Assembly (NCBI GenBank): GCA_030427805.1
Contig: JAUICP010000004.1
Coordinates: forward strand, 414,705-478,704
DNA from: Bdellovibrionia bacterium
GTDB lineage: Bacteria > Bdellovibrionota > Bdellovibrionia > Bdellovibrionales > JAGQZY01
Direction: 5' to 3'
DNA length: 64,000 bases
Under the pieces are notes generated by a model. The model saw only the letters and a program-made list of their open reading frames with translations, was not told the DNA's origin and did not search any database. The position numbers and the translations under genes are program-made. This document shows, one piece after another, positions 9,748 through 28,750 of this stretch. The stretch's first letter is position 1. Every line of letters starts with the position of its first letter.

Positions 9748-11598
9748 TTAATACCAAAAGAAATTATTGAGACTCTCTGAAGTCTTCAACTGGCCCGCCT
9801 TCATCGAAGCTTGGATTTTTTCGGCGACCTTATGGGGGCGAATCTTAAGCGTCGTGGTTTTCGGCAATTCTTCAAAACTCAAGTAGGTTCGAGTGGGCCT
9901 TTTAAATTGCGCGAGAACTTCGAGTCGATTCTTCATGAGATCCGCAATAAGGCTTTCCACTTCAGAGGGATCGAGTTCAGATTTCTCAAGACGATCCATG
10001 ATGATATCTTTGTCAGGGATAATGACAGCAACCACTTCTTCAGTCTTCGCCTTAAGGTCAAAGTCTTTGAGACCAAAAACACAAACCTCTCCGATTTCGG
10101 GAAGGCTGGTTAACAACTGTTCGATTTCTTCGGAGTGAACCTTCTTACCACTGTTCAAAACGATCATCCTTTTGATTCGGCCTCGCACATAGAGGTAACC
10201 ATCTCGATGAATAAAACCAAAATCTCCAGTCTTATACCAAGAGTCTTTAGTAAGAGCTTGTTCAGTTAAAGTAGGATTCTTAAAGTAACCTTGCATAATA
10301 TGGGGGCCGCGAGTGTAAATTTCGCCTTCACCTTTGTCATTGGGTTCATTGATTTTAACTTCAATTCCCGCAAAGGGTTTACCCACTGATCCTGGTTTCC
10401 AATCGTCAACTCGGTTCACCGAAATGACAGGACCTGTTTCGGTAATCCCGTAACCTTCATAAATCGGAAGACCAATGGTTGAGAAGAAATCAATAGTCGA
10501 CTTCTTAACAGGTGCTCCACCAACGATGATACGCTCTAAAGCTCCACCAAAGCTTTCGTGAATCATTGCGAATATTTTTCTTCTTTGCGCGAAATCACTA
10601 CTCAAACGAGCTTTTTGCTTCAACACACTAAAACCCGATTTCTTTAGGAGACTTTGAGCTTTGATCTTTGTGGCAATACCCTTGCGAATTCCATCAACTA
10701 AGAGTGGAACAGTGATCAGTTGGGTTGCTTGCTTGACCTTAAGACAAGTTATTAAGTGATCTTTGTCGATCGAACGCACAAAGATTTGCTCTCCGCCAAT
10801 TGAAAATGGGTAAATCAAAGCGCTTACGAGTCCAAACAGGTGATTTAATGGCAGCATAAAAAGAAATCGTTCCTTCTTCTCAGAACGTCCTTCTTCAGCC
10901 GTGCGACTGGTTTGAAAAAGAACTGTTTCGTGAGAAACCATAACACCCTTGGGCTCCCCTGTCGTACCCGACGTGTAAATAATCGCTGCCGTCGTCGACT
11001 TAGGGTTACAATGAGTTAATTGAATATGTTTAAAATCAGGCAGTTCATGGATATCATCGATGAGAATAAAGTCCGGAATTTGATTTAATAGATCTGGTCT
11101 TTCAGAAAATTCCTCTGCTTGGATTTGAGAAAAGATGATGACTTCGGGATCAGCATGTTGAATCAGGTTCACTTTCTCTTGCAAAGTGAGTTTGACGTCC
11201 AATGGTACAAGGGCAACGCCCGCACACCAGGCCCCGAGAACAAGTGGAGGATAATTAAGGGTCGCCTCAGAAATCACAACAATTCGCGATATTTCCCGCA
11301 TTTTGAAAAATCGGGCTAGGCGAAAGCTACGAGCAACCAATTCAAAATAATTCATGTTCTCAAATTCAGAAACCTGATCATCGACTGGCAAGCAAAGAGC
11401 ATTTTCCTCTCCAAAAACATTACCAAGGGACTTTACAAAGTCGAGCATCGAATTGAATTGGATTTGATCAAGTTTTTCGAGACGAGACATAGATGACATT
11501 ATAGGCTGATCTTCGTGATCAAAGTATTCATTAAAAAATCGCTGCTTTAATTTCGAACTTTTGTCTTTTCCTGTAGATTCCCTATTTGCACCTAGCAT
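9748..11598 (-). CDS. Acyl-AMP ligase / acyl-CoA synthetase of the biosynthetic cluster
   Basis: A 616-residue member of the ANL adenylating enzymes. The phosphate-binding loop YTSGTTGEPKG lies near residues 207-218, the motif YEGYGITETGPV in the middle, and the TGDFG...GRIKRMI hinge (A7/A8) near 455-485. Family members activate a carboxylic acid as acyl-AMP and pass it to CoA or to a carrier protein. No carrier domain is attached, and the neighbouring megasynthase starts with a free ACP, so the likely job is loading a fatty acid onto that ACP, like the AL domain of mycosubtilin synthetase. Whether it is FAAL-like (acyl to ACP) or FACL-like (acyl to CoA) cannot be settled by eye. An internal ATG about 30 codons in could also be the start. 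Confidence 0.87.
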   Translation of the reverse strand: MLGANRESTGKDKSSKLKQRFFNEYFDHEDQPIMSSMSRLEKLDQIQFNSMLDFVKSLGNVFGEENALCLPVDDQVSEFENMNYFELVARSFRLARFFKMREISRIVVISEATLNYPPLVLGAWCAGVALVPLDVKLTLQEKVNLIQHADPEVIIFSQIQAEEFSERPDLLNQIPDFILIDDIHELPDFKHIQLTHCNPKSTTAAIIYTSGTTGEPKGVMVSHETVLFQTSRTAEEGRSEKKERFLFMLPLNHLFGLVSALIYPFSIGGEQIFVRSIDKDHLITCLKVKQATQLITVPLLVDGIRKGIATKIKAQSLLKKSGFSVLKQKARLSSDFAQRRKIFAMIHESFGGALERIIVGGAPVKKSTIDFFSTIGLPIYEGYGITETGPVISVNRVDDWKPGSVGKPFAGIEVKINEPNDKGEGEIYTRGPHIMQGYFKNPTLTEQALTKDSWYKTGDFGFIHRDGYLYVRGRIKRMIVLNSGKKVHSEEIEQLLTSLPEIGEVCVFGLKDFDLKAKTEEVVAVIIPDKDIIMDRLEKSELDPSEVESLIADLMKNRLEVLAQFKRPTRTYLSFEELPKTTTLKIRPHKVAEKIQASMKAGQLKTSESLNNFFWY

Positions 11599-11643
11599 GA
11601 ACTCGACCTTCTTCCTGGTAAGTGGGTTGATCCTAAAATCTGC

Positions 11644-11673
11644 AATTTGTTTCGCAAATTCTGAGGCTCAGAA
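11644..11673. repeat. Two adjacent small inverted repeats between ligase and thioesterase genes
   Basis: AATTTG/CAAATT (11644-11660) is followed by TTCTGAG-G-CTCAGAA (11659-11673), an almost perfect 15-bp palindrome. They lie in the 114-bp gap on the minus strand after the thioesterase stop and before the ligase start. They could be a weak terminator, an operator or an mRNA hairpin; no T-run follows. Confidence 0.35.
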
Positions 11674-11712
11674 GAAACTTCCAGTCCTAAGTATTCAAAA
11701 TCTTTGCCATGC

Positions 11713-12420
11713 TTAAAGAATGATGTGTTTAATTCTATCTAGAAAGAGCGGCACTTGAGGTAAAAAATAGAAATGGTCACCACTAAAAAGCCGTAGATCG
11801 ACCGAGCGCGACGTCAATCTTTGCCAGTCCCTGAGTCCTTTTATGCTCGTTAAGGGGTCTGACTCTCCACCAAAAACATGAAGCTTAAGACCTTCTACTT
11901 TGTCTCTATTAAAGTCTTGGGCCACAAACCACTTTAAGTCGTTTCGAAGAAGTGGAACAAACTCCTTTTGCCAGGCCTTTGAAGCGATTGCCTTTTCATC
12001 GTTGAAACCAAGTGCCCTGAGAAAATCCACATCTTCTAGAGAAAAATCAATTCGACGGTGATCATGATGGGGGGAGCGCATTCCTGAAACAATCAATTCA
12101 AACTGACTGACCTTACTACTGTAGTGACGTGACAAACATTCCCAAAGAATCATGGCCCCCATGGAGTGACCAAAGAAATAATTTTTTTCTCCCCAATTTT
12201 CATCAATAAGAAGACACAACTTCTCACATACCACTTTCAACTCAGGAATTTCCTGGGCCCAATCGGCCGTTGTTCTCGAGGGCAAGTCTAAAAAAACGAG
12301 TTTATGGGTTTCAAATAATTCTTTAAATATTGGCATATAAAAGGCATGGAAGCCACCTGCGTGATGGCTTACAAAGAGAACTCGATCTGATTTTTTATTC
12401 CCTAGGACTTTTGCAGGCAT
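11713..12420 (-). CDS. Type II thioesterase (editing alpha/beta hydrolase)
   Basis: A 235-residue GrsT/RedJ-like thioesterase. The nucleophile elbow GHSMG gives Ser86, Asp188 lies in GGESDP and His216 in SGDHFYF; all three catalytic residues are in the usual places and the length is typical. Such stand-alone enzymes remove stalled or wrong acyl groups from carrier proteins of PKS and NRPS lines, and some release products. The start overlaps the end of the phosphopantetheinyl transferase gene by 19 bp, so the two are translationally coupled. This ties both to the megasynthase 7 kb away, which lacks its own TE domain. Confidence 0.9.
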   Translation of the reverse strand: MPAKVLGNKKSDRVLFVSHHAGGFHAFYMPIFKELFETHKLVFLDLPSRTTADWAQEIPELKVVCEKLCLLIDENWGEKNYFFGHSMGAMILWECLSRHYSSKVSQFELIVSGMRSPHHDHRRIDFSLEDVDFLRALGFNDEKAIASKAWQKEFVPLLRNDLKWFVAQDFNRDKVEGLKLHVFGGESDPLTSIKGLRDWQRLTSRSVDLRLFSGDHFYFLPQVPLFLDRIKHIIL

Positions 12421-13106
12421 TCTTCATCCAAGTACTTTTTAACATCTACTTTTTGCAAGGAAATTTCCCGACTTCGCCTCTGACTCACCGAGAAAATAAA
12501 AGCATCTTCCTCAAAAGAATTTAAAAAAGCCTGCTGGCCTTCTTTTTTAAGACTGTCGCTCAATACTGAAAAGGAATGAAAGTCCTCACCCAAACCTCGT
12601 CCCGTCATTTTGGAGTAAGACTCTTTTCGCGTCCATATTCGCAAAAATTCTGATTTTCTATTCTCTTCAGAAACATTTTCCAAGTATCTCAACTCTTCGT
12701 CGCTACAAATTCTTTTTTCGAGAAGAACTTGAGACTTGATAGGCCGATCGATCCGCTCTATGTCACAACCTAATTCGTCGGCAGGATCGACGACGATCAG
12801 GGATGCTCCACTACAATGGCTTATACTAAAATGGTAGTCTCCATAGGCTTGGGATTCGACGTAAAGTTTGCCATGTTCGCTCTTTACGAAGTCAGCGACG
12901 GGCCCCGTATAAGAAGTTCTTCGATCCAACTCGACCCTCAAAACGTGACGGGTGAGTGCAAACTCTAACCTTCGCTTGGGCGCTAAGGAATCCTTATTCA
13001 GATATTCTTTTTCCGACGGACTAAGATAGAGCTTGGACCAGTTTATTGGCTCTTCAATAAACTCAAACCAAACACCACTTGCTTCGATTTGCAGACTCAC
13101 GACCAC
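12402..13106 (-). CDS. Sfp-type 4'-phosphopantetheinyl transferase
   Basis: A 234-residue enzyme that would convert apo-ACP to holo-ACP by moving phosphopantetheine from CoA to a serine. It shows FSISHCSG (93-100), the magnesium-binding GCDIERI (Asp115, Glu117) and the WTRKESYSKMTGRGL motif (158-172, with Glu162 and Lys166). The double-length, two-lobe size is that of the Sfp/EntD type used for PKS and NRPS carriers, not AcpS. Its targets are most likely the two ACP domains of the megasynthase. It is the first gene of the minus-strand side of the cluster. Confidence 0.93.
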   Translation of the reverse strand: MVVSLQIEASGVWFEFIEEPINWSKLYLSPSEKEYLNKDSLAPKRRLEFALTRHVLRVELDRRTSYTGPVADFVKSEHGKLYVESQAYGDYHFSISHCSGASLIVVDPADELGCDIERIDRPIKSQVLLEKRICSDEELRYLENVSEENRKSEFLRIWTRKESYSKMTGRGLGEDFHSFSVLSDSLKKEGQQAFLNSFEEDAFIFSVSQRRSREISLQKVDVKKYLDEECLQKS

Positions 13107-13120
13107 CGACCTTCACAGTA

Positions 13121-13149
13121 TTGACCCCTCCTACACTATAACCTATTCT
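13121..13149 (+). promoter_or_regulatory. Sigma70-like promoter for the small membrane protein gene
   Basis: TTGACC at 13121-13126 and TATTCT at 13144-13149 are separated by exactly 17 bp. A purine-rich ribosome-binding site (AAGAGGAG, 13163-13170) and the ATG at 13176 follow. The box lies in the 69-bp gap between divergent genes, so the start region of the phosphopantetheinyl transferase gene is also close by. Confidence 0.55.
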
Positions 13150-13175
13150 TTTAAAAAGCAAAAAGAGGAGCGGCC

Positions 13176-13598
13176 ATGGATGTAACTAACGTAGGTGAAT
13201 TCAATATTCAAATGGGCTGGATATTCATGGTCTTCGGAATTTTGACCGGGTCAATTATTGGGTGTTGGTCTTTTGCCGGCCCCTTTCCAACTCCTCCGGG
13301 ACACAAAAACTACACGGATCTCCCGAGAAGAATGACTCGACTCGCACACATCGCTCTTTTTATGCTTCCTCTGATCAGCATTGTAATCGGCCATCACATC
13401 GACAACCTCCCCTTCAGTGAATCCACAAAGTGGTTTGCGGCTTACTGCTGGGTGGTTTGTATGATCGGAGTCCCAACATTTCTTTACGCGGGTGCCCTCT
13501 ACAACCCTTTAAAATACCTGGAAATCATCCCTGTCTCGGCTGGAACGATCACCCTTGCACTCATGAGTTGGGGCCATTTACAGCTCTTGATGAATTAA
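13176..13598 (+). CDS. Unknown four-helix membrane protein
   Basis: A 140-residue integral membrane protein with four hydrophobic segments (about residues 14-33, 55-75, 83-103 and 113-135). The start is well supported by AAGAGGAG with a 5-bp spacer. It has conserved-looking polar residues between helices 1 and 2 (HKNYTDLPRRMTRLAHIA) but no motif that I know. It is divergent from the phosphopantetheinyl transferase gene and 244 bp before the desaturase, so membership of the biosynthetic cluster is possible but unproven. Confidence 0.65.
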   Translation: MDVTNVGEFNIQMGWIFMVFGILTGSIIGCWSFAGPFPTPPGHKNYTDLPRRMTRLAHIALFMLPLISIVIGHHIDNLPFSESTKWFAAYCWVVCMIGVPTFLYAGALYNPLKYLEIIPVSAGTITLALMSWGHLQLLMN

Positions 13599-13842
13599 GC
13601 AAGACAGGGCAACACACAGATCCATAGTAAAGTGTCTGGTCAAAATTTGACTCTTTAGTTGCATATCCGTCCTTATTAATAGAGAAAAATTAAATTATTT
13701 TTCAAAGTTTTCACCAGACCGAATCGCTTTTCGGCACAACCAAACAAAATTCGTAAATATCCCCTTTGGGCTTCCTAAATATCTAAAAACACTATATGGT
13801 GCGAAGCGTTATTCGTGCTCTTGTAACTCGTGCTTTGAAGGA

Positions 13843-14826
13843 ATGGTAGCCCCGATGTCTCTGGCAAATGACTTGAGAAAATTGAGAAAGAACTATGAAC
13901 AAAAGGGATACTTTAAACTTTCTCCTCTACAGCTCTTAGCGGAATTCAGCCTCTGCTTAATTCTTTATGTTGGTGGCTTTTTAATCTATCCCGACTATCC
14001 CCTTTCAGGAATTGCCTTGCAACTGGTTGCCGCCATTACCATCGTTTGGTCCATTCATGACATTGGCCACGGTGCATTTTTTAAATCGAACCAACTCAAT
14101 CGTTGGCTCAGTGAAATTCTTGGCTTGTGGATTTTAGGAATGCCACAAATGGAATATCACTTTAACATCCATAGAAAACACCATAGCTTCACAAATATTC
14201 TCGATAAGGATCTCGCCCTCAATACAGGCTTTATTGCTTGGCACGAGAATCAAATCGACAGGCGCTTTAAATCCCTATACCCCCTACAGAGTTTCATTTG
14301 GATTTTCTTTGTTCTGCCTTTAACCTACCCCATTTTAACACTCCAGTGTTCGCTACTTTTGGTAAAAAACAAAGAGTGGTCTCGCTTAATTTTGCTAGTG
14401 AGTCGGTGGATATTATTCACATTTATCTACTGGAACTCTCTGACTCTATTATTTATTCCCCCTCTGATAACGGGATTTATTTTAGGCCTATCAGCAAGCT
14501 TGAATCACTTTCACTTGCCGATCTCCAAGGGTTTTAACTCTAAATATCCTGAAAAGGTTTTTAGAACGACTCAAAACCTAAACTCAAAAAGTTTTTTCGC
14601 AAGATGGATAACTGGCGGGCTTAATAGTCACATCGAACATCACTTGTTTCCTACAATGCCAAGTCGAAATCTCCACTTAATTTCTGAGGACATCGCACAA
14701 CTGGCAGAAAAACATGATCTCAATTATCACTCCTCCTCCTTCTACTCCTGTATCTTAAATTTATGGAACAAATTGGAATCCATTAAAAAAGTAAACTCAC
14801 GAGAATCTCTTTATGAAAACATTTGA
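13843..14826 (+). CDS. Membrane fatty acid desaturase (acyl-lipid type)
   Basis: A 327-residue diiron desaturase. Its three histidine boxes are HDIGH (72-76), HRKHH (110-114) and HIEHH (263-267), between hydrophobic helices that put the boxes on the cytoplasmic side. Such enzymes introduce a double bond into an acyl chain using O2 and an electron donor. There is no fused cytochrome b5 or ferredoxin. Two ATGs (13843 and 13855) are possible; the GAAGGA just upstream is better spaced for the second. The 3' end overlaps the next gene by 14 bp, so it heads a translationally coupled tailoring set. Confidence 0.9.
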   Translation: MVAPMSLANDLRKLRKNYEQKGYFKLSPLQLLAEFSLCLILYVGGFLIYPDYPLSGIALQLVAAITIVWSIHDIGHGAFFKSNQLNRWLSEILGLWILGMPQMEYHFNIHRKHHSFTNILDKDLALNTGFIAWHENQIDRRFKSLYPLQSFIWIFFVLPLTYPILTLQCSLLLVKNKEWSRLILLVSRWILFTFIYWNSLTLLFIPPLITGFILGLSASLNHFHLPISKGFNSKYPEKVFRTTQNLNSKSFFARWITGGLNSHIEHHLFPTMPSRNLHLISEDIAQLAEKHDLNYHSSSFYSCILNLWNKLESIKKVNSRESLYENI

Positions 14827-15961
14827 AAAACTGTTATTTTATATCGTAAGAACCTCGGCTGTATTCTTACCCTTGATTGCCTTCCTAGGTATACTAGAGG
14901 GCTCGATTTACAGCTTCTCTGCCTTTTTCGTTGTTTTCGTTTTCTATTTCATCATTGAGTTGATTCTCTGGATAAGTGGACTGAGTGCATTTTCTCGCTT
15001 AGATAATGAGTTTCAATTTGTTGATCCAGAGCAAAAAAACAATTGGGATCAAATCAATATATATGTCTATTCATTTCTCCATATACTTTTAATTCCTTCG
15101 GCACTCTACATACTTTCCAGTCGCACAGTGGATTTTGCCTATCTGGGAAGCATCCTTTCTCTTGCTGCAACATGTGGAACAGTGGGTGGACTCGCCGGTC
15201 ACGAATTTATGCATCGAAGCGATCGATTGACTCGAAACTTAGGTGTTTTGGTGTATGGAATGCTTAACTACGGACATTTTAAAGTCTCACATATACTGGG
15301 TCATCACGTCTACGTGGGAACCTACGGTGATTGGAGCACAGCCCGGAAAAACGAGAGTTACTATAGGTTTTGGAACCGAGCCGTTATCGGAGGATACATT
15401 GGAGCTTGGAATCTAGAAAAGATCAGACTTAAAAAAAGAGGCCTACACTTTTTCTCTTTTAATAATGAAATGATTTTGATTAGTATTTTTCAAGTAACTC
15501 TTAATCTCAGTATCTATCTCGCCTTTGGTGGAAGAGTATTGCTCACCTATTGGCTCATTTGCTTTATGGCCATTTCTCTCAAAGAAATTGTAAATTACCT
15601 CTCCCACTATGGATTAAACCGAGTCAGGAATTCTCAAGGCCGGTTAGAATCAATTAAAAATTCCCACTCGTGGGAATCAAATAATAAGGTAACCAATTGG
15701 TTTATCTTCAATGCCGGAAAACACTGCCATCACCATCGACGCCCATCAGCTCATCATGACGACCTCAAACTCTGCCACGAAAAAGACTACTTACCCTACG
15801 GCCTTCCGATGATGGCACTCATCGCCCTGGTTCCACCCTTGTATTTCAAAATGATGAACAAAAAACTTGAACAAATAACCTCAGTCGAAAACAAATCGGC
15901 TGAAAAAAGCCCAGAAAATAAATTAGATAAAACCACTAAGATGGAGATTTTGAATGTATAA
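14813..15961 (+). CDS. AlkB-like membrane diiron monooxygenase
   Basis: A 382-residue membrane protein with the alkane-monooxygenase histidine pattern: GHEFMHR (first box near residue 130), SHILGHHVYVGTYGDW (His160, 164, 165), NYLSHYGLNR, and KHCHHHRR (His304, 306-308). The first, second and fourth resemble AlkB HEL-HK, EH--GHH and RH-DHH, and the third matches the AlkB NY-EHYGL segment. AlkB enzymes hydroxylate terminal or subterminal carbons of alkyl chains; relatives act on fatty acids or sterols. Placed between a desaturase and a CFA-type methyltransferase, it more likely oxidises a fatty acyl chain than a free alkane. It overlaps both neighbours (14 bp and 8 bp). The C-terminal 30 residues are a charged tail. 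Confidence 0.82.
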   Translation: MKTFEKLLFYIVRTSAVFLPLIAFLGILEGSIYSFSAFFVVFVFYFIIELILWISGLSAFSRLDNEFQFVDPEQKNNWDQINIYVYSFLHILLIPSALYILSSRTVDFAYLGSILSLAATCGTVGGLAGHEFMHRSDRLTRNLGVLVYGMLNYGHFKVSHILGHHVYVGTYGDWSTARKNESYYRFWNRAVIGGYIGAWNLEKIRLKKRGLHFFSFNNEMILISIFQVTLNLSIYLAFGGRVLLTYWLICFMAISLKEIVNYLSHYGLNRVRNSQGRLESIKNSHSWESNNKVTNWFIFNAGKHCHHHRRPSAHHDDLKLCHEKDYLPYGLPMMALIALVPPLYFKMMNKKLEQITSVENKSAEKSPENKLDKTTKMEILNV

Positions 15962-17174
15962 CAAGCTCAACTACTACTCTTCTACTCCCGTTCCTATTGA
16001 AACTCATTCATTAACTCGATTGAACTCGCAATCTCTTACGAAGCAAATCTTAAGACCTAAAACCTATGTAAAGAGTTTTATCCAAAGCCGACTCGAAAGT
16101 GCCGACATTAAGATCGGAGGGAGTCGTCCTTGGGATATCCAAGTTGAAAACGAGGACTTTTATAGCGAGGTCTTTTGGCGGCAAAGCCTCGGACTTGGTG
16201 AGTCCTATATGAAGGGCTATTGGAGTTGTCAGCAATTAGATCAATTAATATGCAAAATTTTTAGTTCTCCTATCAATAGAAGGCGAAATACTCCTGCGAA
16301 CATTGCCAGTGAAACGATCGCCCGCTTTTTTAACTTACAGTCAAAGGGTCGAGCGAAGATTGTTAATACAAAACACTATGATCTAGGCAACGAACTCTAC
16401 CGAGAAATGCTTGATGAAAACATGCTTTATACCTGTGCCTATTGGAAAAATGCGACAACGCTCGAAGAAGCTCAAATAAACAAAATGAAACTCATTTGTG
16501 AAAAGCTTGAACTACAACCCGGAATGACTTTGCTGGATATTGGCTGCGGATTTGGATCACTTATGAAATTTGCTGCTGAAAACTACGGCGTTAAATGTGT
16601 TGGCTATTCACTGTCTACCGAGCAAATCAAATTTGGTAGAGAGAGTTGCCAAAATTTGGACATAGAATTTGTTTACGATGATTATCGCAATATAAAAGGA
16701 AAATTCGATCGAGTCGTATCTGTCGGAATGCTAGAAGCAGTCGGCGCTAAAAACTTTAGAACTTATATGGAAGTCGTTTATCGATCCTTAAAAGATAATG
16801 GGCTCGCTCTCATACACAGCGTCGGTCACAACCGTACTACATTCTCTACAGACCCTTGGGTCGATCGCTATATATTTCCAAATGGCGTGCTCCCTTCGAT
16901 AAAACAAATTGGTGAATCCATTGAAAACCTTTTCGTTATGGAAGATTGGCATAATTTTGGACCTGATTACGATCGCACCCTCATGGAATGGAATCGACGG
17001 TTTCAAAAGAATTGGCCGAGGCTCTCAAGTAAACTCTCACCCGAGTTTAAAAAAATGTGGGAATTTTACTTGCTCTCATTCGCCGGTGGTTTTCGTGCAA
17101 GAAATTGGCAACTCTGGCAAGTGGTTCTCAGCAAGCAAGGTCGAAAGCAGCCTCAATGTCTTCGACAAAATTAA
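15954..17174 (+). CDS. Cyclopropane-fatty-acid-synthase-type SAM methyltransferase
   Basis: A 406-residue protein strongly resembling E. coli Cfa (382 residues). It shows the active-site region YTCAYWKNATTLEEAQ, SAM-binding LLDIGCGFGS, VVSVGMLEAVG, DRYIFPNGVLPS, MEDWHNFGPDYD, and the C-terminal FRARNWQLWQVVLS. The active-site Cys (TCAYW) and Glu (GMLEAVG) are kept; the His after that Glu in E. coli is Ala here. Family members add a methylene or a methyl group from SAM to a double bond, giving cyclopropane or methyl-branched acyl chains. Position after a desaturase fits that chemistry. It overlaps the next gene by 19 bp. Confidence 0.92.
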   Translation: MYNKLNYYSSTPVPIETHSLTRLNSQSLTKQILRPKTYVKSFIQSRLESADIKIGGSRPWDIQVENEDFYSEVFWRQSLGLGESYMKGYWSCQQLDQLICKIFSSPINRRRNTPANIASETIARFFNLQSKGRAKIVNTKHYDLGNELYREMLDENMLYTCAYWKNATTLEEAQINKMKLICEKLELQPGMTLLDIGCGFGSLMKFAAENYGVKCVGYSLSTEQIKFGRESCQNLDIEFVYDDYRNIKGKFDRVVSVGMLEAVGAKNFRTYMEVVYRSLKDNGLALIHSVGHNRTTFSTDPWVDRYIFPNGVLPSIKQIGESIENLFVMEDWHNFGPDYDRTLMEWNRRFQKNWPRLSSKLSPEFKKMWEFYLLSFAGGFRARNWQLWQVVLSKQGRKQPQCLRQN

Positions 17175-18406
17175 AAGTAGCCGTTGTTGGCGGAGGAGCC
17201 GCCGGCATAGGGGCTGCTCATAAACTCTCACAACTTGGCCACGATGTTACTATAATTGAGTCAGGAAATCGGATAGGTGGCCACGCCAATCCCGTTGTCA
17301 TCGAAAGCAATGAAGGGCCTGCGACAGTAGACACGGGCTTTCTCATTTTTAACGACTCCACATACCCTAATTTTTGTCAATTTTTGAAAGAACTAGAAGT
17401 CATTGAGGATGCACATAATCTAGAAATGTCCAGTTGCTTCCGCAACACTGACGACCAAATCGAGTACTCAATGGGACAAAAAGATAGACTGGTTCGGTTT
17501 GGACTCAAAGAGGCTTTTAATCCCCGTTTCTGGTCGATCTTTAAAGAAATGTATCGATTTCGCAAAAAGGCCCATTCAGATATCGTCAACAAGGTAGACC
17601 TCAGTAGCATCTCAATTGAGGAGTATCTGAAAGACTTCAGTAAGAGTTTTAGCGACAATTTCGTGTATCCTCTGACTTCAGCTATATGGTCTCTTCCCCC
17701 GAGTCAGATCGGCTTGTATCCGGCCCAAAGCATTTTAAATTATTTCTATAACCACCAATTACTGGCGGGCAAGAGCGACAAACGGTGGTTGAGCTTCAAA
17801 GGTTCCAGCGCCGTTTACCTTGATGCCTTCCGTTCGAAATTTTCTGGAAAAATAATCTTAAACTCATTGGTTAAACGTATTGAACGCGACTCAAAAGAGA
17901 TATCAATTTTCTTGGACAATGAAGGGGCCCCTATTCAATTCGACAAAGTCATTTTAGCGACACCAGCCGATATGAGCCTGAAACTATTGAGTGACCCAAG
18001 TCCTCTTGAAAGGGATCTATTGGCACGCTGGAGGTATAATAGCTCGACTGCAACTTTGCACACCGACACGAGTGTCCTCCACAAGGACAAAAAGTTGTGG
18101 TCCAGCTGGAATATGAATAAGTCTGGAAACCGATACTTTATAAGCTATTATTTGAATCGCGTTCACGATCTCAAATCCAATTCAGAATATGTACTCAGCC
18201 TCGGAACACCAGGAATTCGAAACGAAAAAATCATTCAGGAGTTTCAATATCGCCACCCTATTTTCGACCAAGAATCCGTGTCGAGCCAAGTTCAACTTCA
18301 GAACCTGAATAGGGGGCAAACTGCCTTCTGTGGCAGTTACTTTGGCTTTGGATTTCATGAGGATGCATTTGCATCGGGTCTCAAAGCGGCTCAGTCGATT
18401 TTATAG
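17156..18406 (+). CDS. FAD-dependent oxidoreductase (COG2907-like amine oxidase fold)
   Basis: A 416-residue flavoprotein with the dinucleotide-binding VAVVGGGAAGIGAAHKL (Gly12-Gly17), the ensuing acidic residue in TIIESGNRIGGHA, and a C-terminal FAD contact near FCGSYFGFGFHEDAFASG. The ATG at 17156 gives a start right before the FAD strand; longer starts would read far into the methyltransferase. COG2907-type proteins often sit beside Cfa-type methyltransferases, and such pairs are known in pathways for methyl-branched or furan fatty acids. The likely job is oxidation or reduction of the acyl chain made by the preceding gene. It overlaps that gene by 19 bp. Confidence 0.87.
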   Translation: MSSTKLKVAVVGGGAAGIGAAHKLSQLGHDVTIIESGNRIGGHANPVVIESNEGPATVDTGFLIFNDSTYPNFCQFLKELEVIEDAHNLEMSSCFRNTDDQIEYSMGQKDRLVRFGLKEAFNPRFWSIFKEMYRFRKKAHSDIVNKVDLSSISIEEYLKDFSKSFSDNFVYPLTSAIWSLPPSQIGLYPAQSILNYFYNHQLLAGKSDKRWLSFKGSSAVYLDAFRSKFSGKIILNSLVKRIERDSKEISIFLDNEGAPIQFDKVILATPADMSLKLLSDPSPLERDLLARWRYNSSTATLHTDTSVLHKDKKLWSSWNMNKSGNRYFISYYLNRVHDLKSNSEYVLSLGTPGIRNEKIIQEFQYRHPIFDQESVSSQVQLQNLNRGQTAFCGSYFGFGFHEDAFASGLKAAQSIL

Positions 18407-18635
18407 CTCGATTCGGGCCTCTCGAACTCAAGCCTTTATGCCCCTAAAAGCCCTTTATTTTGACTGTTCATTATAGGCTAAGGCTACTAACAAAAAGTGG
18501 CGCCCAAGGCCTCATATCTCATAGATTGGATTTCAGAAGCTCAATTCACAGCACATATATTGCAAAATGGAACCACTATCGGCACGGACAAAGAAGTCCT
18601 TGCATAAAAAGTGTAAGAAAAGAAAAGAGGTTATT

Positions 18636-19460
18636 GTGAAATTAGACTATTCGGATCCTAGAACCACTGGTCGAAAAGCTGTTAAAGATTCTGTTCCCGC
18701 GGACATTTGGACTGCCAATTCTGCTTTTGTCGACCGTCTTCAAGCCAAGTTAGCTAAACACCCAATCGTTGGTCACCCAGTAAAAGAATTTTTTGAAACT
18801 GAAACCCTAGATAAAGAAAAAACCAAGCAACTTCACCTTGAGTTTGGATATGCCTTCGCGCAAATTTTTACCGATGCAGTACTCACGGCAATGGCTAAAG
18901 CCACCGACCTTGAGAACCGTCATGGCCCAAGATCAAAGGTAACGGCTCGATTTTTATGGGCTCTTAACCTCATGGACGAAATCGGATACATGCCTGGAGA
19001 TAACAATGAGAACTACAAGGGTAACCCTTTTGCAGCTCATTATTTTCAATACGTAAAGCTTTACGAAGAGTTGGGCATGTCTGTTGACGCCATTAAGGAT
19101 TTTAAACCATCTAAGGCGGCCGTCGATTCAAGAGCGACTATGGAAGAGTACTACGGTGATTACCAAATGCTCACTACAGTTCTTGCCTACGCCGAATCAA
19201 TCTTTGATCGATTTGCTGGTGCTTGGGCGGATAATGCCTCTCGTTCAGCTGGAATTGATATCTCAGAAGGATACCATACAATTCACGTTGAAGATGAGCA
19301 CGGTGACTCAATCGATGATGATCACTCTGAAGATTCTTGGACTTTAGTTCGCCAAGCATTGGATCCAGCTCGTCACGATGAGATTGAGAAAAAAGCTGGT
19401 GAATGGCTCGATACATGGTATCGCTTTGCCGATAGTGTTATCGAAATCGCCACAAAGTAA
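18636..19460 (+). CDS. Putative heme-oxygenase-like diiron oxidase (HDO/UndA-like)
   Basis: A 274-residue, all-helical soluble protein. GTG at 18636 is chosen because AAGAGG lies 5 bases upstream (18625-18630); an in-frame ATG at 18567 would add a lysine-rich tail without a site. Possible metal ligands are the Glu in HLEFGYAFAQ, the Glu in LNLMDEIGYMPG, the His in NPFAAHYFQY and the cluster HTIHVEDEHGDSIDDDH. This looks like the helices of iron-containing redox enzymes of the TENA/PqqC/UndA fold, which cut, hydroxylate or desaturate fatty acyl or amino acid substrates. The spacing in the last helix is not textbook, so the family call is tentative. It ends 34 bp before the megasynthase. Confidence 0.5.
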   Translation: MKLDYSDPRTTGRKAVKDSVPADIWTANSAFVDRLQAKLAKHPIVGHPVKEFFETETLDKEKTKQLHLEFGYAFAQIFTDAVLTAMAKATDLENRHGPRSKVTARFLWALNLMDEIGYMPGDNNENYKGNPFAAHYFQYVKLYEELGMSVDAIKDFKPSKAAVDSRATMEEYYGDYQMLTTVLAYAESIFDRFAGAWADNASRSAGIDISEGYHTIHVEDEHGDSIDDDHSEDSWTLVRQALDPARHDEIEKKAGEWLDTWYRFADSVIEIATK

Positions 19461-19494
19461 TTAAAACTAAATTGCTCCCCTAAGAGGAATGTCC

Positions 19495-22400
19495 ATGAAC
19501 CTAACTCAGTTAGAAATAACAAAGTGGTTGCTGGCGCAAATCTCAGAAATGAGCGGTCAAAAAGAAAGCTTGATCCCAACGGATCAGGCTTTCGTTCAAT
19601 TAGGTCTGACGTCTATGGATGCAGTTCAATTGGTTGGTCGACTCAAAAAAGACTTACAAATTGAGATTTCGCCAACTCTTCTCTTTGATTATCCAACAGT
19701 CGATGAACTCGCTGAATATTTAAGCAAAACCCCAGACAGTTCACTCACCAAAAGTGAGCTAAAAAGTTCAGAGACTGCCTTATTAGAAGAAATTGGAATT
19801 TCTGGAATGGCCTGCCGTTTTCCTGGGGCACCAGATCTCAATTCTTTTCAATCTCTCCTCGAAGATGGAAAAAGTGGAATCAATCTGCAAAACCGCTTTC
19901 ATTTGTCTCAGGGCGTGCCCTCCGAAGCGGGCTATATCGAAAATTTGGATCAATTTGACCCCAGTCTTTTTGGTATTTCTTCGGCCGAGGCTGCAGCCAT
20001 GGACCCCCAGCAAAGAATTCTCCTGCAAGTCGTCGTTCAAGCCATCGATGATGCTGGATTAAAACTAGAAGATCTCAAAAACACCAATACTGGAGTCTTC
20101 GTTGGAATTTCGAGTTCTGACTACTCTATATTAATGGCAAAAGAAGGGGCGCAAAGTAGCCTTTTTGATGGAACCGGAAACGCTCACAGCATTGCGGCCA
20201 ATCGAATTTCTTACCTTTTAGGTCTTCGCGGACCCAGTTTTTCCGTGGACACGGCATGTTCTTCTTCGTTAGTCGCCGTACACCTTGCCAGAAAAAGCAT
20301 ACTCAACGGAGAGTGTGATCGCGCCATCGTTGGGGGAGTTAACCTCATGTTAATCCCCGACATTACAGAAAATTTCTTTAAAGCGAATATGCTTTCACCC
20401 GATGCTCGCTGTAAAACCTTTTCCGAAGGTGCTAATGGTTACGTTCGCGGTGAAGGAGCTGGTGCTCTCATTTTAGAGAGAGCTTCTATAATCGAAAAAT
20501 CTCACCGTAAATCCAGAGTACTTTTAAAGGGTTCAGCTATTAATCAAGATGGAAGGACCAATGGACTTACGGCTCCTTCAAGTTTAGCCCAAGAAATGGT
20601 TATTAAAGATGCTCTTAACAGTGCTCATCTCGAGGCAAAAGATATTGGATATGTCGAAGCCCATGGTACAGGGACCTCACTGGGTGATCCCATTGAATAT
20701 GATAGTCTAAACAGAACCTATGGCGCGAACCCAAAACTCTATATAGGCAGTGTGAAAACAAATATTGGGCACCTAGAAGCTGCGGCTGGTATGAGTGGTC
20801 TTATAAAGGCGGCTCTTTCGGTTCAATCTAAAAAGATATTTCCCCATCTCAACTATACAGAGATCAATAAAAACATTGCCCAGGTAAACCCTAAAATTGA
20901 AATTCCTCTACGTAAAATGGACTGGGATAATGAACTCCCACTACGGGCAGGAATTAGTTCTTTCGGCTTTGGTGGAACCAACGCCCATGTCATTCTCGAA
21001 GCCAACGAAAATGCTATCAACCTCAGCGAGAAGACATTTAACATCGAGCCCGAACCCAATTTCTACCTATTGCCGTTTTCTAGCTCTAGCGTAGAGAGCT
21101 TATTGGCCGACCTCGAAGACTTAACCAAGCTCATAGACACTAACCAAGTCAAATCCATAGGTGATCTTTCACTCAGCCTTATCAATAATCGGAGTCAGTT
21201 TAAATTCCGCTGTAGTTTAGTCGCAAAAGATCTGAATGACTTGAAAAATCAAATAACTGATCTCTTAGAAAAGCCTCGGCTTCAGAAACAAAAAATTTTC
21301 TCACTGAAAAAAGTTATTCCGCGAAAAGTCCTTGGCCTCTTCACAGGACAGGGGTCCCAAAGCCCAAAAATGGGTATGGATCTCTATCAATTCAACTCAA
21401 CCTATCGTGATTCTTTTAATCAGGTCGCAGAGATATATAGAGAATTGAGTGGAATCGATATTCACCGAGCTCTTTACATTGATGACGATAAAGCGGCGAT
21501 CTATCAAACAGATCTTGGACAAATTCTAATTCTTGCTACGGAATACGCCCTCTTCCAATTGTGGAAGGGCTTGGGAGTTCAATTGGAATTCGCCGTCGGT
21601 CATAGTCTTGGAGAGATTATTGCTCTGGCCTGCAATGGCAGTTTGAGTCTCAATTCTGCAGTAGAACTGATTCACTACCGCGGACAGGTCATGCAGAAGA
21701 GTGCTCCCGGACAAATGCTGACTCTTTTTACTGATAAGGTTTCCACTGAAAAAATAATAAAGGAACAAGGACTTCACTTAGATATTGCAGCTATTAATGG
21801 CCCCGAGTTAACTCTCGCCTCGGGACTCGAAGAAGAGGTAGCAAAGCTGAATAACTACTGTGAAAAGGAAGGTATTCGCTCTAAAGTTTTACCTGTAAAA
21901 CAAGGGTTTCACTCTTATCTCATGGAGCCGGTCCTGAGTGAATTTAAATCCCATCTTAAAGGAATCGAATATTCAAAGGGACAGTTTAAAGTTATGTCCT
22001 GTAAGGACTTAAAGTTTCACCAACAAAACCAACTCAGCCCAGAGTTTTGGGCAGGCCACCTGCGAAACGCCACGAACTTTAACGGAGCTATAGAACGACT
22101 TCCAGAAAGTGAATTTGACCTGATACTAGAAATCGGCCCTCACCCGACTTTAATAAGCATGTACAAGGAAATTCGACCTGATTCGAAAGTGACTCAGGTT
22201 TCTAGTTTGAATCGAAAAAAACCAGATATGCAGGCATTTTTAGAAAACCTCGGTTTAATGTGGTGTACGGGTTATCCAGTGCAGCTCGGTCAACTACGAA
22301 AGGCAAAGTACCACCTACAAAGACTCGCTCCTCGGCACTTTGCAACACAAAGCTTTTGGTTTAAAAAGGCCAAAGCCTCAGACCACCCGCAATTTAGGAA

Positions 22401-25400
22401 TTCCACGCCGGCTCCCCTCGATCCAAGAGCAGTACCATCTGCTGAGATTAAGATAGAAGCTAAAAAACCTCAGACCCCTGTACCGCAAAAAAGGAATGAT
22501 ATGGCTCACACAGTTGATAATGTCCTCAAAGAAATTAAAGAAATCGTAGCCGAACAGCTCGAAGTCGATGTTGAAGAGATTGATACTTCAGCTCCACTGA
22601 TGGAAATGGGCGCTGACTCCCTTGTCTTACTCAATAGTCTCGAAATTATAAAGGACGAATACGGAGTGAGTGTATCGGTATCAGATGTCCTAGGCGATCT
22701 TGGAAACCTCGATAAAATTGCAGACCATGTCGCAAAAAATACAACTCAAACGAGCTCTCCCCAAACACAGTCGGCCATTGACGATCAAAGTGCAGATACT
22801 CACACTTCAGCAGAACAAGTCTCAAATCCCCAGTCGAATCTCTCTCAAGTTCAACAAGCAATGTTTCAGGCGCAAACTCAAGTGAATCTCAGCCAAAACC
22901 TTCTGAGTGGTGGTGAAGTCTCTAACGACCTCATTCAACTTCTCAATAACCAAATGATCGTTATTCAAAATCAAATCAGCCTTCTCGCGGGCCAGTCTTA
23001 CCAGAGCCCCCAAGCGAACCAAGCCGTATCAGTAAAGTCACAAACACCTACAGCAACTAAAACCCTACAAAGCAATTCAACAGAATCCAATGAAGCATCA
23101 GGAAAAGGTGTTCTCGGTAATTTCTCTAAATCGAGTTTTAATCAGGTTGACCAGCTGGATGAGGAAAAGTCGAAATATATAGATCAATTAATAAGTGAAT
23201 TCACGGCAAAAACTAAAACGTCGAAAGATCTGGCCGAAACCTACCGAATTCCTCTTGCGGACAATCGAGTTCCCGCAGGCTTTCGCCCGCGCATTAAAGA
23301 GATGATCTATCCCATAGCTTGGAAAAAGGCCAAAGGGTCTAAGTTTTGGGATGTGGATGGGAATGAATACACAGATTACACAATGGGCTTTGGCGTAAAT
23401 CTCTTCGGCCATTCCCCCGACTTCATTAATGACAAAGTTGCAGAACAACTTTCTCAAGGTATGGCCGTGGGCCCTCAATCTCACCTCGCTGGAACCGTTG
23501 CCAAAAAAATATGTGAACTCACAAATCACGAGCGAGTTGCCTTTCTCAACTCAGGAACAGAGGCGATTATGACTGCCGTTCGCCTGGCGCGAGCAGCAAC
23601 TGGGCGACAAAAAGTTGTTCTTTTCGAAGGCTCCTACCACGGACATTATGACGGTGTTCTCGGTCGAGCGAATCGTAAAGGAAACACAGTCCCAGTGGCT
23701 CCAGGAATTTCAGAGGCCCTAGTTTCTGATTTAATTATTCTCGAATACAACAGTCCTGAGGCCCTCGACTACATTAGAAATAACGCCAATCAGCTAGCCG
23801 CTGTTCTTTGCGAATCGGTTCAAAGTCGATTTCCAGAAGTTCGCCCCCAAGAATTTCTTAAGGAAGTTCGCAATATAACTAGTCAATCGGGTACCGCTCT
23901 AATTATGGACGAAGTCATTACTGGCTTTCGCGCAGCACCCGGCGGTGCTCAAGAGCTTTTTGGTGTTCAAGCAGACCTTGCTTGCTACGGAAAAGTTCTT
24001 GGTGGTGGTCTGCCTATTGGCGCCATTGCTGGAGCTCAAAAATACCTTGATTTCATCGATGGTGGTGAGTGGCACTTTGGAGATCAATCCATGCCGGTCA
24101 ACGAAATGACCTTCTTTGCGGGAACTTTCTGCAAACATCCATTGGCCATGGCTGCCTCTCTTGCAGTTCTAAATAAACTTCAGACTGAAGGAAAAAAGAT
24201 ACTCGACGACCTCAATGAGCGCACCCAGCGCTTAGCAGAAGAACTCAATGAGTTTTTTCAAGCGCGAAAGACTGACATTGAAATCGTTTACTTTTCTTCT
24301 CTTTTTCGATTTAAATTCAAGGGCAATAAAGACTGGCTCTTTTCGAAGCTTAACTTTCTTGGCCATTACATCTGGGAAGGTCGAAACATGTTTCTCTCGA
24401 CCGCGCACTCAGAAGATGAGATTAAACAATTTGTTAACGACATAAAAGCGACAACGGATGAACTCATCAAAATTGGATATATTCCCGGAGAAATTGCTGA
24501 GGGCACCGAAATCAATACTCAGTCCTCAAGTCTGCTGCCAAAGCCGTCATTTGAAAAGATGAGTCTCGACCTTATCGAGCCGCAAACGCGCTTCTACGAC
24601 TTGGTGGGTAACGAGTCGACTGCGACAGTTGCTAATATATGTGTCGCAGTGGATCTTATGGGTCAAGTCGACAAAAAGCTTCTTGAAGCTTCAATTCAGA
24701 AGTCGATCGTTCGTCACGATATTCTTTGGGCTAATTTTGCCGACGCTAAAGCTCACTTTGGCGAAAGAGTTTCTGGTTTCGAATTAAAAACAACGGATCT
24801 AACTCAAGTGACAGCCAAAGAGAGTGCACTTAAGGAGATCTTATCTGATCTCGCTTCGACTCCCATGGGACCAGAACAGTTTCCAATCTCAATTGAACTT
24901 ATTGAGCTCGATCAGGAGCACTCTGTGCTCGCATTGTCTGCTAATCACTTAAGCTTAGATGGACTCTCACTCGCTATCTTAACGGATGAAATTGCAAAAA
25001 TTTATACAGCGGGTGGTGATCTGAAAAAGGCAAAGCTCAAAGAGGCGCTCCGATTCTCAGATTACATGAAAGATTATCCGACCCGAATCGCAAAATTAAC
25101 TGACTCAATTAAGTATTGGGATGATAAGGTGAAAACCCTATACCCTGGCACACTCGACCACAGCAAAAGCTACAAAGGCCAAAGGGTTTATACACAAATT
25201 GAAGAACCCGAATTTAAGTTGATAAAGCGATTTGGATTTAAAAACTCCAGCTCTTTACTGATGACGTTGATAGCATGCTCCAGTAAGGTCCTCGCCAAAA
25301 TGAAAGGCTTTGAAAGCCTGAGTGTTGGAGTTCCCGTTGCAGGTCATACTTCGATTACACAACCTATGCTTGGTAACTGTGTCAATTTAGTTCCGATCAA

Positions 25401-25788
25401 TGTCGAAGTGAATGCAACTACGGAGATCAAATCCATGATTCCAGATCTCAAAAAAGAGGTTTTGGAGAGCTTCAAGCATGCGGACATTCCATTTATTCGC
25501 TACGAAAAAAGCCTTGGTAAACCCCTATTCGACGTCCATATCAATGTCGAGCCCATATCAGATCTTCCGAAATTTGGAACGGTAAAAACCCAATGGCGTA
25601 GCTTCCCCGTGCAGTCCGTAGAGTGCCCGATCATTATTAATGCTCTTAAAATTGATAAAGGCTTTCGCATCGAAATGGACTATCAAGAAGATACCTTTAA
25701 TACCGATGAAGCGAAGAGCTTTATGGATCAACTCGTTGCCGAACTTAATCACCTGGTCGAAACTGAAAAGCCTGCGCAGAAACTTTAA
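19495..25788 (+). CDS. Hybrid PKS/aminotransferase/NRPS-condensation megasynthase
   Basis: A 2097-residue enzyme. Domains in order: ACP1 (1-85, GLTSMD, Ser40); ketosynthase (about 98-505, Cys255 in DTACSSS, His390 in EAHGTGT, His426 in NIGHLE); acyltransferase (about 610-900, Ser704 in GHSLGE, His806 in QGFHS, where Phe favours malonyl); ACP2 (about 1003-1078, Ser1042 in GADSLV); Gln/Ser-rich linker (about 1085-1215); class III PLP aminotransferase (about 1225-1670, Asp1472, Lys1500 in YGKVLGGG); condensation domain (about 1690-2090) with NHLSLDG, catalytic His1818 kept. There is no KR, DH, ER, A or TE domain. The order matches the front of mycosubtilin and microginin synthetases and predicts a beta-amino fatty acyl product. 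ATG 19495 has AAGAGGA at good spacing; ATG 19489 is too close. Confidence 0.95.
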   Translation: MNLTQLEITKWLLAQISEMSGQKESLIPTDQAFVQLGLTSMDAVQLVGRLKKDLQIEISPTLLFDYPTVDELAEYLSKTPDSSLTKSELKSSETALLEEIGISGMACRFPGAPDLNSFQSLLEDGKSGINLQNRFHLSQGVPSEAGYIENLDQFDPSLFGISSAEAAAMDPQQRILLQVVVQAIDDAGLKLEDLKNTNTGVFVGISSSDYSILMAKEGAQSSLFDGTGNAHSIAANRISYLLGLRGPSFSVDTACSSSLVAVHLARKSILNGECDRAIVGGVNLMLIPDITENFFKANMLSPDARCKTFSEGANGYVRGEGAGALILERASIIEKSHRKSRVLLKGSAINQDGRTNGLTAPSSLAQEMVIKDALNSAHLEAKDIGYVEAHGTGTSLGDPIEYDSLNRTYGANPKLYIGSVKTNIGHLEAAAGMSGLIKAALSVQSKKIFPHLNYTEINKNIAQVNPKIEIPLRKMDWDNELPLRAGISSFGFGGTNAHVILEANENAINLSEKTFNIEPEPNFYLLPFSSSSVESLLADLEDLTKLIDTNQVKSIGDLSLSLINNRSQFKFRCSLVAKDLNDLKNQITDLLEKPRLQKQKIFSLKKVIPRKVLGLFTGQGSQSPKMGMDLYQFNSTYRDSFNQVAEIYRELSGIDIHRALYIDDDKAAIYQTDLGQILILATEYALFQLWKGLGVQLEFAVGHSLGEIIALACNGSLSLNSAVELIHYRGQVMQKSAPGQMLTLFTDKVSTEKIIKEQGLHLDIAAINGPELTLASGLEEEVAKLNNYCEKEGIRSKVLPVKQGFHSYLMEPVLSEFKSHLKGIEYSKGQFKVMSCKDLKFHQQNQLSPEFWAGHLRNATNFNGAIERLPESEFDLILEIGPHPTLISMYKEIRPDSKVTQVSSLNRKKPDMQAFLENLGLMWCTGYPVQLGQLRKAKYHLQRLAPRHFATQSFWFKKAKASDHPQFRNSTPAPLDPRAVPSAEIKIEAKKPQTPVPQKRNDMAHTVDNVLKEIKEIVAEQLEVDVEEIDTSAPLMEMGADSLVLLNSLEIIKDEYGVSVSVSDVLGDLGNLDKIADHVAKNTTQTSSPQTQSAIDDQSADTHTSAEQVSNPQSNLSQVQQAMFQAQTQVNLSQNLLSGGEVSNDLIQLLNNQMIVIQNQISLLAGQSYQSPQANQAVSVKSQTPTATKTLQSNSTESNEASGKGVLGNFSKSSFNQVDQLDEEKSKYIDQLISEFTAKTKTSKDLAETYRIPLADNRVPAGFRPRIKEMIYPIAWKKAKGSKFWDVDGNEYTDYTMGFGVNLFGHSPDFINDKVAEQLSQGMAVGPQSHLAGTVAKKICELTNHERVAFLNSGTEAIMTAVRLARAATGRQKVVLFEGSYHGHYDGVLGRANRKGNTVPVAPGISEALVSDLIILEYNSPEALDYIRNNANQLAAVLCESVQSRFPEVRPQEFLKEVRNITSQSGTALIMDEVITGFRAAPGGAQELFGVQADLACYGKVLGGGLPIGAIAGAQKYLDFIDGGEWHFGDQSMPVNEMTFFAGTFCKHPLAMAASLAVLNKLQTEGKKILDDLNERTQRLAEELNEFFQARKTDIEIVYFSSLFRFKFKGNKDWLFSKLNFLGHYIWEGRNMFLSTAHSEDEIKQFVNDIKATTDELIKIGYIPGEIAEGTEINTQSSSLLPKPSFEKMSLDLIEPQTRFYDLVGNESTATVANICVAVDLMGQVDKKLLEASIQKSIVRHDILWANFADAKAHFGERVSGFELKTTDLTQVTAKESALKEILSDLASTPMGPEQFPISIELIELDQEHSVLALSANHLSLDGLSLAILTDEIAKIYTAGGDLKKAKLKEALRFSDYMKDYPTRIAKLTDSIKYWDDKVKTLYPGTLDHSKSYKGQRVYTQIEEPEFKLIKRFGFKNSSSLLMTLIACSSKVLAKMKGFESLSVGVPVAGHTSITQPMLGNCVNLVPINVEVNATTEIKSMIPDLKKEVLESFKHADIPFIRYEKSLGKPLFDVHINVEPISDLPKFGTVKTQWRSFPVQSVECPIIINALKIDKGFRIEMDYQEDTFNTDEAKSFMDQLVAELNHLVETEKPAQKL

Positions 25789-28700: not shown

Positions 28701-28750
28701 TCATTTCACTTAATTAATAGCATTCTATTAAAGTCATTTAACAACAAAAA

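Follow-up and report, generated by a model that had tools for sequence, protein, structure and literature searches.

A mycosubtilin-type beta-amino fatty acyl synthase paired with a heme-oxygenase-like protein in Bdellovibrionota: a candidate pathway to an oxidised lipid

The closest described relatives of the locus reported here are the synthetases of mycosubtilin and iturin, microginin and puwainaphycin. MycA of the mycosubtilin/iturin type carries a ketosynthase (KS), a carrier, an aminotransferase (AMT) and a condensation (C) domain in this order, as does the synthase described below, and microginin synthetases are grouped with those of puwainaphycin. In puwainaphycin biosynthesis the fatty acyl-AMP ligase (FAAL) PuwC and the acyl carrier protein (ACP) PuwD are encoded by separate genes (PMC4219810; papers are cited by PubMed Central number). 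The locus studied here lies in a window of 64,000 nucleotides, the whole stretch of DNA analysed (C7:414705-478704), from genome G000 (4.5 Mb, 98.93% complete) of a member of the Bdellovibrionia, a class within the phylum Bdellovibrionota. It encodes a megasynthase of the order ACP-KS-acyltransferase (AT)-ACP-AMT-C, a separate acyl ligase and, directly upstream of the synthase, a heme-oxygenase-like (HDO) protein. On balance, with slightly more speaking for this view than against it, the locus encodes a self-contained pathway, free of nonribosomal peptide synthetases (NRPS), whose product would be a beta-amino fatty acyl lipid that is oxidised and then exported towards the outer membrane.

The locus was compared with 368 Bdellovibrionota genomes, the phylum to which the in-depth search was confined; an initial search with the synthase, run against 98 relatives, led to G071. 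A profile of the HDO protein (E up to 1e-8) matched in eight genomes (G000, G001, G071, G262, G361, G166, G160 and G171), which represent seven lineages across five families (f1, f8, f4, f12 and f28). G001 is a genus-mate of G000; its contig ends inside the synthase, so that it was not counted among the genomes with an AMT synthase. In all seven lineages the HDO gene lies directly upstream of the synthase gene on the same strand, at a distance of 6-28 bp in the window, G071, G262, G160 and G171 and with overlapping open reading frames (ORFs) in G166 (10 bases) and G361 (53 bases). The conserved unit, present in all seven, consists of the ligase, a type II thioesterase (TEII), a small membrane protein termed mem140, and the HDO gene directly upstream of the synthase gene. 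The ligase is a gene separate from the synthase in every lineage. Relative to the window, the six other lineages carry in their loci ligase homologues of 32-38% identity, Thioesterase-domain genes of 24-28% identity and mem140 homologues of 48-61% identity. A phosphopantetheinyl transferase (PPTase) was found in four of the seven (window, G071, G262 and G361), the remaining three having been searched by BLAST only. In G071 the synthase homologue is 41% identical over its length and has the same domains; in the same locus lie the genes for mem140, TEII, HDO, the ligase, the PPTase and an arylesterase-like protein. In pairwise comparison, the identities of HDO, synthase and ligase rise and fall together (Spearman 0.69-0.79). 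The core genes of the window are as follows:

9748-11598, minus strand: stand-alone acyl ligase, putative loader of the first carrier, ACP1 (Pfam AMP-binding, E = 3.9e-60)
11713-12420, minus strand: type II thioesterase (Pfam Thioesterase, E = 2.9e-19; GHSMG motif)
12402-13106, minus strand: Sfp-type PPTase (Pfam ACPS, E = 3.4e-18)
13176-13598, plus strand: mem140, 140-aa membrane protein with four predicted helices (no Pfam match at 0.001)
18567-19460, plus strand: HDO protein (predicted fold similar to PolF, CADD, HrmI, BesC and UndA)
19489-25788, plus strand: megasynthase ACP-KS-AT-ACP-AMT-C of 2099 aa with terminal C domain (Pfam; match to the MycA AMT domain)

The pairing with the HDO protein sets these synthases apart from the other AMT synthases of the phylum. 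A profile of the AMT-C region (E up to 1e-80) identified an AMT synthase in 34 of the 368 genomes, and the scores split in two: seven genomes reach 1323-1411 bits, whereas the remaining 27 do not exceed 668 bits. The former are the HDO genomes other than G001, in all of which AMT-C stands at the end of the protein. The HDO profile had no match in any of the 27 others, for which stretches round 26 loci and in G075 served as contrast group. There, a ligase-type domain lies upstream in the same direction in 24 of 27 (not in G116, nor in the contig-cut G222 and G223), and an adenylation (A) domain lies downstream in 24 of 27, often in a second protein of the order C-PCP-C-A-PCP-TE; G197, G107 and G215, in which no downstream A domain was found, are contig-cut. 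These 27 lipopeptide synthetases (mostly AL-ACP-KS-AT-ACP-AMT followed by C-PCP-C-A-PCP-TE) share homologous KS, AT and AMT domains with the window synthase; they differ from it by the lack of an HDO match and by AMT and C domains that form clades of their own. In trees of both domains the seven HDO-linked sequences fall on one side of a single branch (supports 100/100 for AMT and 100/99 for C). The lipopeptide synthetases have C domains of two types, and the HDO-linked C domains form a clade apart from both, the third in the tree. Fisher's exact test of 7/0 against 0/27 gave p = 1.9e-7, a value that does not stand for seven independent events since the seven form one clade. The first-pass annotation of this DNA had suggested both a C-domain phylogeny and a search of related genomes for the same gene set; the former returned the single clade just described, the latter the core in seven lineages and an insert of four further genes, described below, in one genus. 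A separate observation concerns the contrast group itself: in the 27 genomes concerned (L086-L111 and L013), these widespread AMT lipopeptide synthetases have one A domain per two carrier sites.

All genes that the first-pass annotation had placed at 9748-25788 were found, with ORFs at the positions and on the strands given. Within the synthase gene Pfam identified ketoacyl-synt, Acyl_transf_1, two PP-binding stretches, Aminotran_3 and Condensation. The AMT domain, placed after KS-AT-ACP as in the mycosubtilin/iturin type, matches that of MycA (PDB 6kfm) with E = 2.1e-147, which supports the earlier reading of the enzyme as a beta-amino fatty acyl synthase of the mycosubtilin type whose loading ligase is a protein of its own. 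The C domain matches those of tyrocidine and Txo synthetases (E = 6.6e-14 and 4.5e-13). Conserved in all seven lineages are the KS Cys/His/His residues, the AT motifs GHSLG and FHS, both carrier serines, the AMT Asp and Lys residues and the second His of the C motif. The system differs from that of MycA in that the loader is a separate protein instead of a fused one, the synthase ends at the C domain without A-PCP-TE or further NRPS modules, and an HDO protein and exporters are attached. It resembles that of puwainaphycin in its separate loading ligase and in the pairing of an oxygenase, here a putative one, with the AMT domain. In puwainaphycin biosynthesis, by contrast, this oxygenase is a monooxygenase of the flavin type that forms a domain of the synthase itself, with NRPS modules after it (PMC4219810). 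The split loading enzyme named by the first-pass annotation has a precedent in PuwC and PuwD (PMC4219810); moreover, in G116, where no upstream ligase was found, the loader likewise seems to be either split or missing. Among 11 AMP-binding matches in G000 the only one within the window is the ligase. At E up to 1e-20 it matches 47 PDB sequences, which belong to CoA ligases, luciferases and enzymes of that kind; none is named FAAL. Pfam detected no A domain in the window synthase, nor was one found in the six other HDO-linked loci searched. Continuation of the pathway on an NRPS elsewhere was considered and rejected, because a search of the G000 genome gave a single Condensation domain, that of the synthase itself. 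Lack of an A domain and of a second detectable C domain points to release by the C domain onto a diffusible nucleophile.

From the order of domains and the mycosubtilin precedent, to which the AMT match leads, we infer the following sequence of steps. The ligase would load an acyl chain onto ACP1, KS and AT would extend it once with malonate, and the AMT domain would convert the 3-keto group on the second carrier (ACP2) into a 3-amine; the one round of extension and the amination are the best-founded steps of the mechanism. The HDO protein may then oxidise the beta-amino acyl group, either on ACP2 or just after release, and the terminal C domain would transfer the chain to a small diffusible amine or alcohol, with TEII clearing wrongly loaded carriers. 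The most likely product would accordingly be an oxidised beta-amino fatty amide or ester, which agrees with the amide or ester suggested by the first-pass annotation.

The HDO protein scored 20.9 bits against PF14518, below the cut-off of 28.9 bits. Its structure was predicted with AlphaFold2 from eight family members (mean pLDDT 80.9), and Z values were determined in VIA on this predicted model, according to which the window protein has a heme-oxygenase fold. Top Foldseek matches include CADD, BesC, HrmI, PolF, RohS and UndA. Z values were 20.3 for PolF (3.5 Å, 242 residues), 20.2 for CADD (3.0 Å, 210 residues), 20.1 for HrmI (3.0 Å, 218 residues, 20% identity), 18.5 for BesC (3.4 Å, 218 residues), 17.7 for UndA (3.2 Å, 226 residues) and 17.5 for FlcD. 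HDO enzymes share a ligand pattern of E/D and H in core helix 1, E in helix 2 and H-x3-D/E-x2-H in helix 3 (PMC11611611). Candidate metal ligands in the window protein are E138 and H158 (helix 1), E210 (helix 2), and H240, D250 or D251, and H253 (helix 3); they are invariant across the eight family rows and in two Acinetobacter homologues. E138 and H158 are separated by a loop of 19 residues, and helix 1 is broken by a loop in CADD and SznF as well (PMC11611611). Model confidence is low round H158 and at 241-250 (block means of pLDDT 51 and 52). On the preceding helix, E92 and D103 are likewise invariant in the family rows and the Acinetobacter homologues, and one or the other might be the extra carboxylate of substrate-independent HDO enzymes. 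With CADD, HrmI, PolF, BesC and UndA the window protein thus has in common the predicted fold and a candidate set of three His and three carboxylates; it differs from them by an identity of 8-23%, by its 19-residue loop and by the spacing H-x9-D-x2-H. When the family profile was run against PDB sequences at E up to 10, the sole match was BesC (E = 0.091, not significant; best stretch 45 residues), and one other HDO sequence had no match in PDB. An HDO protein 99% identical to that of the window is present in a public metagenome-assembled genome record, 'Bdellovibrionia bacterium isolate 2_bin.24'.

Plasmid-borne homologues were also observed. On an Acinetobacter indicus plasmid a stand-alone HDO homologue of 35% identity (L038:8986-9843) adjoins a gene for a TetR-family regulator, and seven further Acinetobacter records of the plasmid collection hold similar genes. 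A Moraxella osloensis plasmid carries a 5'-truncated homologue next to insertion sequence elements (L040:5700-6600). The annotated Acinetobacter homologues are labelled 'iron-containing redox enzyme family protein' or hypothetical.

As to the reaction of the HDO protein, N-oxygenation is a tentative proposal whose chances we rate as limited. It would turn the 3-amine into a hydroxylamine, an oxime or a nitro group; a 3-hydroxylamino acyl thioester could then cyclise to an isoxazolidinone, which the paraoxonase-like enzyme encoded downstream would open. The N-oxygenase HrmI is among the closest folds (Z 20.1) and works with the ordinary set of three His and three carboxylates, no extra carboxylate being needed (PMC13108848), while E92 or D103 could provide the additional carboxylate that SznF and RohS possess (PMC11611611); however, CADD and PolF, which are not N-oxygenases, tie with HrmI in Z value. 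Hydroxylation at C2, giving a 2-hydroxy-3-amino acyl group, appears rather improbable. It would put the HDO protein in the place of the monooxygenase domain that acts after the AMT in puwainaphycin biosynthesis, where the aminotransferase and flavin-type monooxygenase domain of PuwE give a 3-amino-2-hydroxy acyl group (PMC4219810), and it is consistent with the position of the HDO gene beside an AMT synthase in all seven lineages; yet the HDO reactions named in the excerpt of PMC13108848 are N-oxygenation, C-C cleavage, desaturation, azetidine and alkyne formation, rearrangements and self-sacrifice, with no alpha-hydroxylation among them. Just as improbable, in our estimate, is C-C cleavage or desaturation in the manner of BesC and UndA, by which a beta-amino acid would become an olefinic amine, an alkene or a nitrile. 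BesC, UndA and FlcD are among the fold matches, and BesC is the only PDB match of the family profile, but that match is non-significant and covers 45 residues at best, and with the carboxylate gone there would be nothing left for the C domain to do. Least probable is that the HDO protein handles stress or metals and is merely co-expressed with the synthase, as might be imagined from DtpC, another HDO protein, which protects Acinetobacter against oxidative stress (PMC13232832), and from the stand-alone homologues of the window protein in the same genus: its gene adjoins the synthase gene in seven of seven lineages and has no match in any of the 27 other AMT synthase genomes, and the Acinetobacter homologues have E-x20-H, one residue longer than E138-x19-H158 of the window, against E143-x9-H153 in DtpC (PMC13232832). 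Identity of the window HDO protein with DtpC was likewise rejected on ligand spacing, taken from that paper.

Beyond the synthase, the window contains genes whose products may carry the proposed lipid outwards:

27393-28700, minus strand: 435-aa protein, proposed outer-membrane barrel (no Pfam match; homologue fragment in G262, E = 7.6e-8)
28751-29551, minus strand: LolA_like periplasmic carrier (PF17131, E = 4.4e-46)
29555-31909, minus strand: MMPL/HAE3-type RND exporter (PF03176, E = 4.6e-35)
31906-33003, minus strand: paraoxonase/arylesterase-like protein (PF01731, 22.9 bits against a cut-off of 21.3; N-terminal hydrophobic stretch read by eye)

The arylesterase-like gene occurs in six of the seven lineages (five of the six besides the window), directly after the synthase in G166, G160 and G171, and is followed by the MMPL gene in the window, G166 and G171. 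G071 and G361 have instead genes for a LolD-like ATPase, two FtsX-family permeases, related barrel-like proteins and LolA_like proteins. MMPL or Lol-like exporter genes are thus present in five of seven lineages; the remaining two lineages have contigs that break off on the side of the synthase. In G160 the break falls within the arylesterase-like gene, and in G262 it comes some 430 bp after the synthase, within a homologue of the protein encoded at 27393-28700. Judged by gene family, the export machinery would deliver the lipid towards the outer membrane, with the MMPL exporter, the LolA_like carrier and the barrel-like protein acting together and, in two lineages, LolD/FtsX-type genes with LolA_like taking this role; the anchored paraoxonase-like esterase might mature or degrade the product. 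Because homologues of the genes at 27393-33003 accompany the core elsewhere, the cluster limits drawn by the first-pass annotation, though correct as to the genes within 9748-25788, are too short. That annotation also listed the HDO gene simply among the others; its strict pairing with the synthase, the lone terminal C domain and the downstream export genes emerged from the present comparison of sequences. Between synthase and export genes, at 25881-26690, lies a gene for a zinc metallopeptidase, putatively secreted and recognised by the sequence AHEMGHMMG and a weak match of M6/M12 type, of which BLAST detected no homologue in the six other cassette loci examined. Rfam and tRNA scans of the window returned nothing.

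The insert seen in one genus lies between mem140 and the HDO gene and comprises four genes:

13843-14826, plus strand: acyl-lipid (DesA-like) fatty acid desaturase (FA_desaturase, E = 3.4e-32; histidine boxes)
14813-15961, plus strand: AlkB-type membrane monooxygenase (FA_desaturase, E = 1.4e-31; PDB 8sbb, E = 1.5e-42, and 8f6t, E = 5.5e-41; NYLSHYG and His boxes)
15954-17174, plus strand: cyclopropane fatty acid (CFA) synthase or S-adenosylmethionine (SAM)-dependent acyl methyltransferase (CMAS, E = 5.3e-84; NCBIfam PRK11705, 556 bits against a cut-off of 400)
17156-18406, plus strand: FAD/NAD-binding oxidoreductase (Amino_oxidase, E = 2.1e-20; NAD_binding_8, E = 6.2e-15; ORF opens at 17057, probable start at 17156)

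Neighbouring coding regions overlap from the desaturase to the FAD gene, which together with the 28 bp between HDO and synthase suggests, from coordinates, that the genes form transcription units. The insert was found in G000 and G001; none of the six other lineages, G071 included, has it in its cassette locus. The AlkB-type enzyme belongs by sequence and histidine boxes to the AlkB family. Of the 368 genomes, 81 contain a homologue of it (E up to 1e-20), with 28-38% identity outside the genus among the matches listed. AlkB and CFA synthase, on which the first-pass annotation had laid emphasis, were therefore rejected as defining features: the insert was seen in a single genus, whereas homologues of AlkB are widespread among Bdellovibrionota. 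The CFA gene is the one strong CMAS match of its genome, the other four PF02353 matches scoring 20.7-27.6 bits against a cut-off of 27. Rubredoxin (PF00301) was not found in G000, and AlkB may have another electron donor. A comparable pair is that of UfaM, a SAM-dependent acyl methylase, and UfaD, an NAD-FAD-binding desaturase likened to phytoene desaturases, both of which act on acyl chains of phospholipids (PMC7380195). The likeness, a methylase together with an FAD-binding desaturase, is one of description; the window pair differs in that it sits in a beta-amino acyl locus, and the third Ufa enzyme is UfaO. Given that UfaM and UfaD act on phospholipid chains, the insert may modify either the acyl chain ahead of its loading or the lipid once it is complete. 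In this genus the desaturase, AlkB, CFA and FAD proteins would tailor the chain further.

The membrane protein mem140 adjoins the HDO gene on the same strand in G262, G166, G160 and G171. It is predicted to form four long helices (mean pLDDT 70.8); a fold search with the model (pTM 0.58) gave a best E of 0.34, a weak Pfam scan a best E of 0.0036, far below cut-off, and a search of a plasmid collection no match. In G071 (L010:4551-7623) and G361 (L034:10805-14593) mem140 is not directly before the HDO gene and heads the FtsX-type permease genes on their strand, a position that hints at action at the membrane. Homologues are present in 11 of the 368 genomes, namely the eight HDO genomes, G053, G266 and, marginally, G231 (E = 2.5e-4). 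In G053 (L052:80-3385) and G266 (L053:1280-5129) mem140 lies near genes for an acyl ligase and a B12-binding radical SAM enzyme, between which a small ACP-like protein is encoded that in G053 matches PP-binding. Both genomes lack HDO and AMT synthase matches, and perhaps their loci represent a second pathway that shares mem140.

Several observations weigh against a dedicated lipid pathway of the kind proposed. Metal-free relatives of the fold, TenA and PqqC, also match the HDO model (Z up to 17.6), so that the fold alone is no proof of a diiron site and a shared fold does not give function; furthermore, helix 3 reads H-x9-D-x2-H instead of H-x3-D/E-x2-H, in a region of low model confidence. 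HDO homologues occur in nine Acinetobacter and Moraxella records of the plasmid collection (33-35% identity, 26% in Moraxella), and the two stretches with annotation, one of them from A. indicus, list no synthase nearby; such stand-alone homologues indicate that the HDO family is not tied to polyketide synthases as such. Where the C motif should have its first His, the window has N and G160 has Q. For mem140 and TEII, pairwise identities show no correlation with the values for HDO, synthase and ligase (Spearman 0.03-0.18). The export genes of the window start 1.6 kb from the synthase on the opposite strand, with the metallopeptidase gene and a DUF2490 gene intervening, and most of the relatives are draft genomes, several of them fragmented.

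Among the matches listed in a search of the open-licence PMC literature, judged by titles and abstract openings, the gene set is not described. A wider contig scan with two narrow patterns confirmed two loci, both from Bdellovibrionota, which does not by itself show absence from other phyla. It is conceivable, if rather doubtful, that the locus stands for a new class of outer-membrane lipid in several Bdellovibrionota families: a beta-amino fatty acid that a dedicated diiron HDO enzyme would oxidise on the carrier, at the amine or at the carbon next to it, and that would then be released by the orphan C domain onto a soluble nucleophile and exported by MMPL- or Lol-type machinery. A lipid-building enzyme resembling the front end of an antibiotic factory, lacking the peptide-making half and joined by a putative iron oxygenase in every lineage in which it was found, suggests an amine-bearing fatty product made without peptide. 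If this is true, HDO chemistry would gain a possibly carrier-bound lipid substrate, and the set of seven lineages is comparative material ready for expression. The product would then be a candidate signature surface lipid for a little-studied phylum that includes predatory bacteria.

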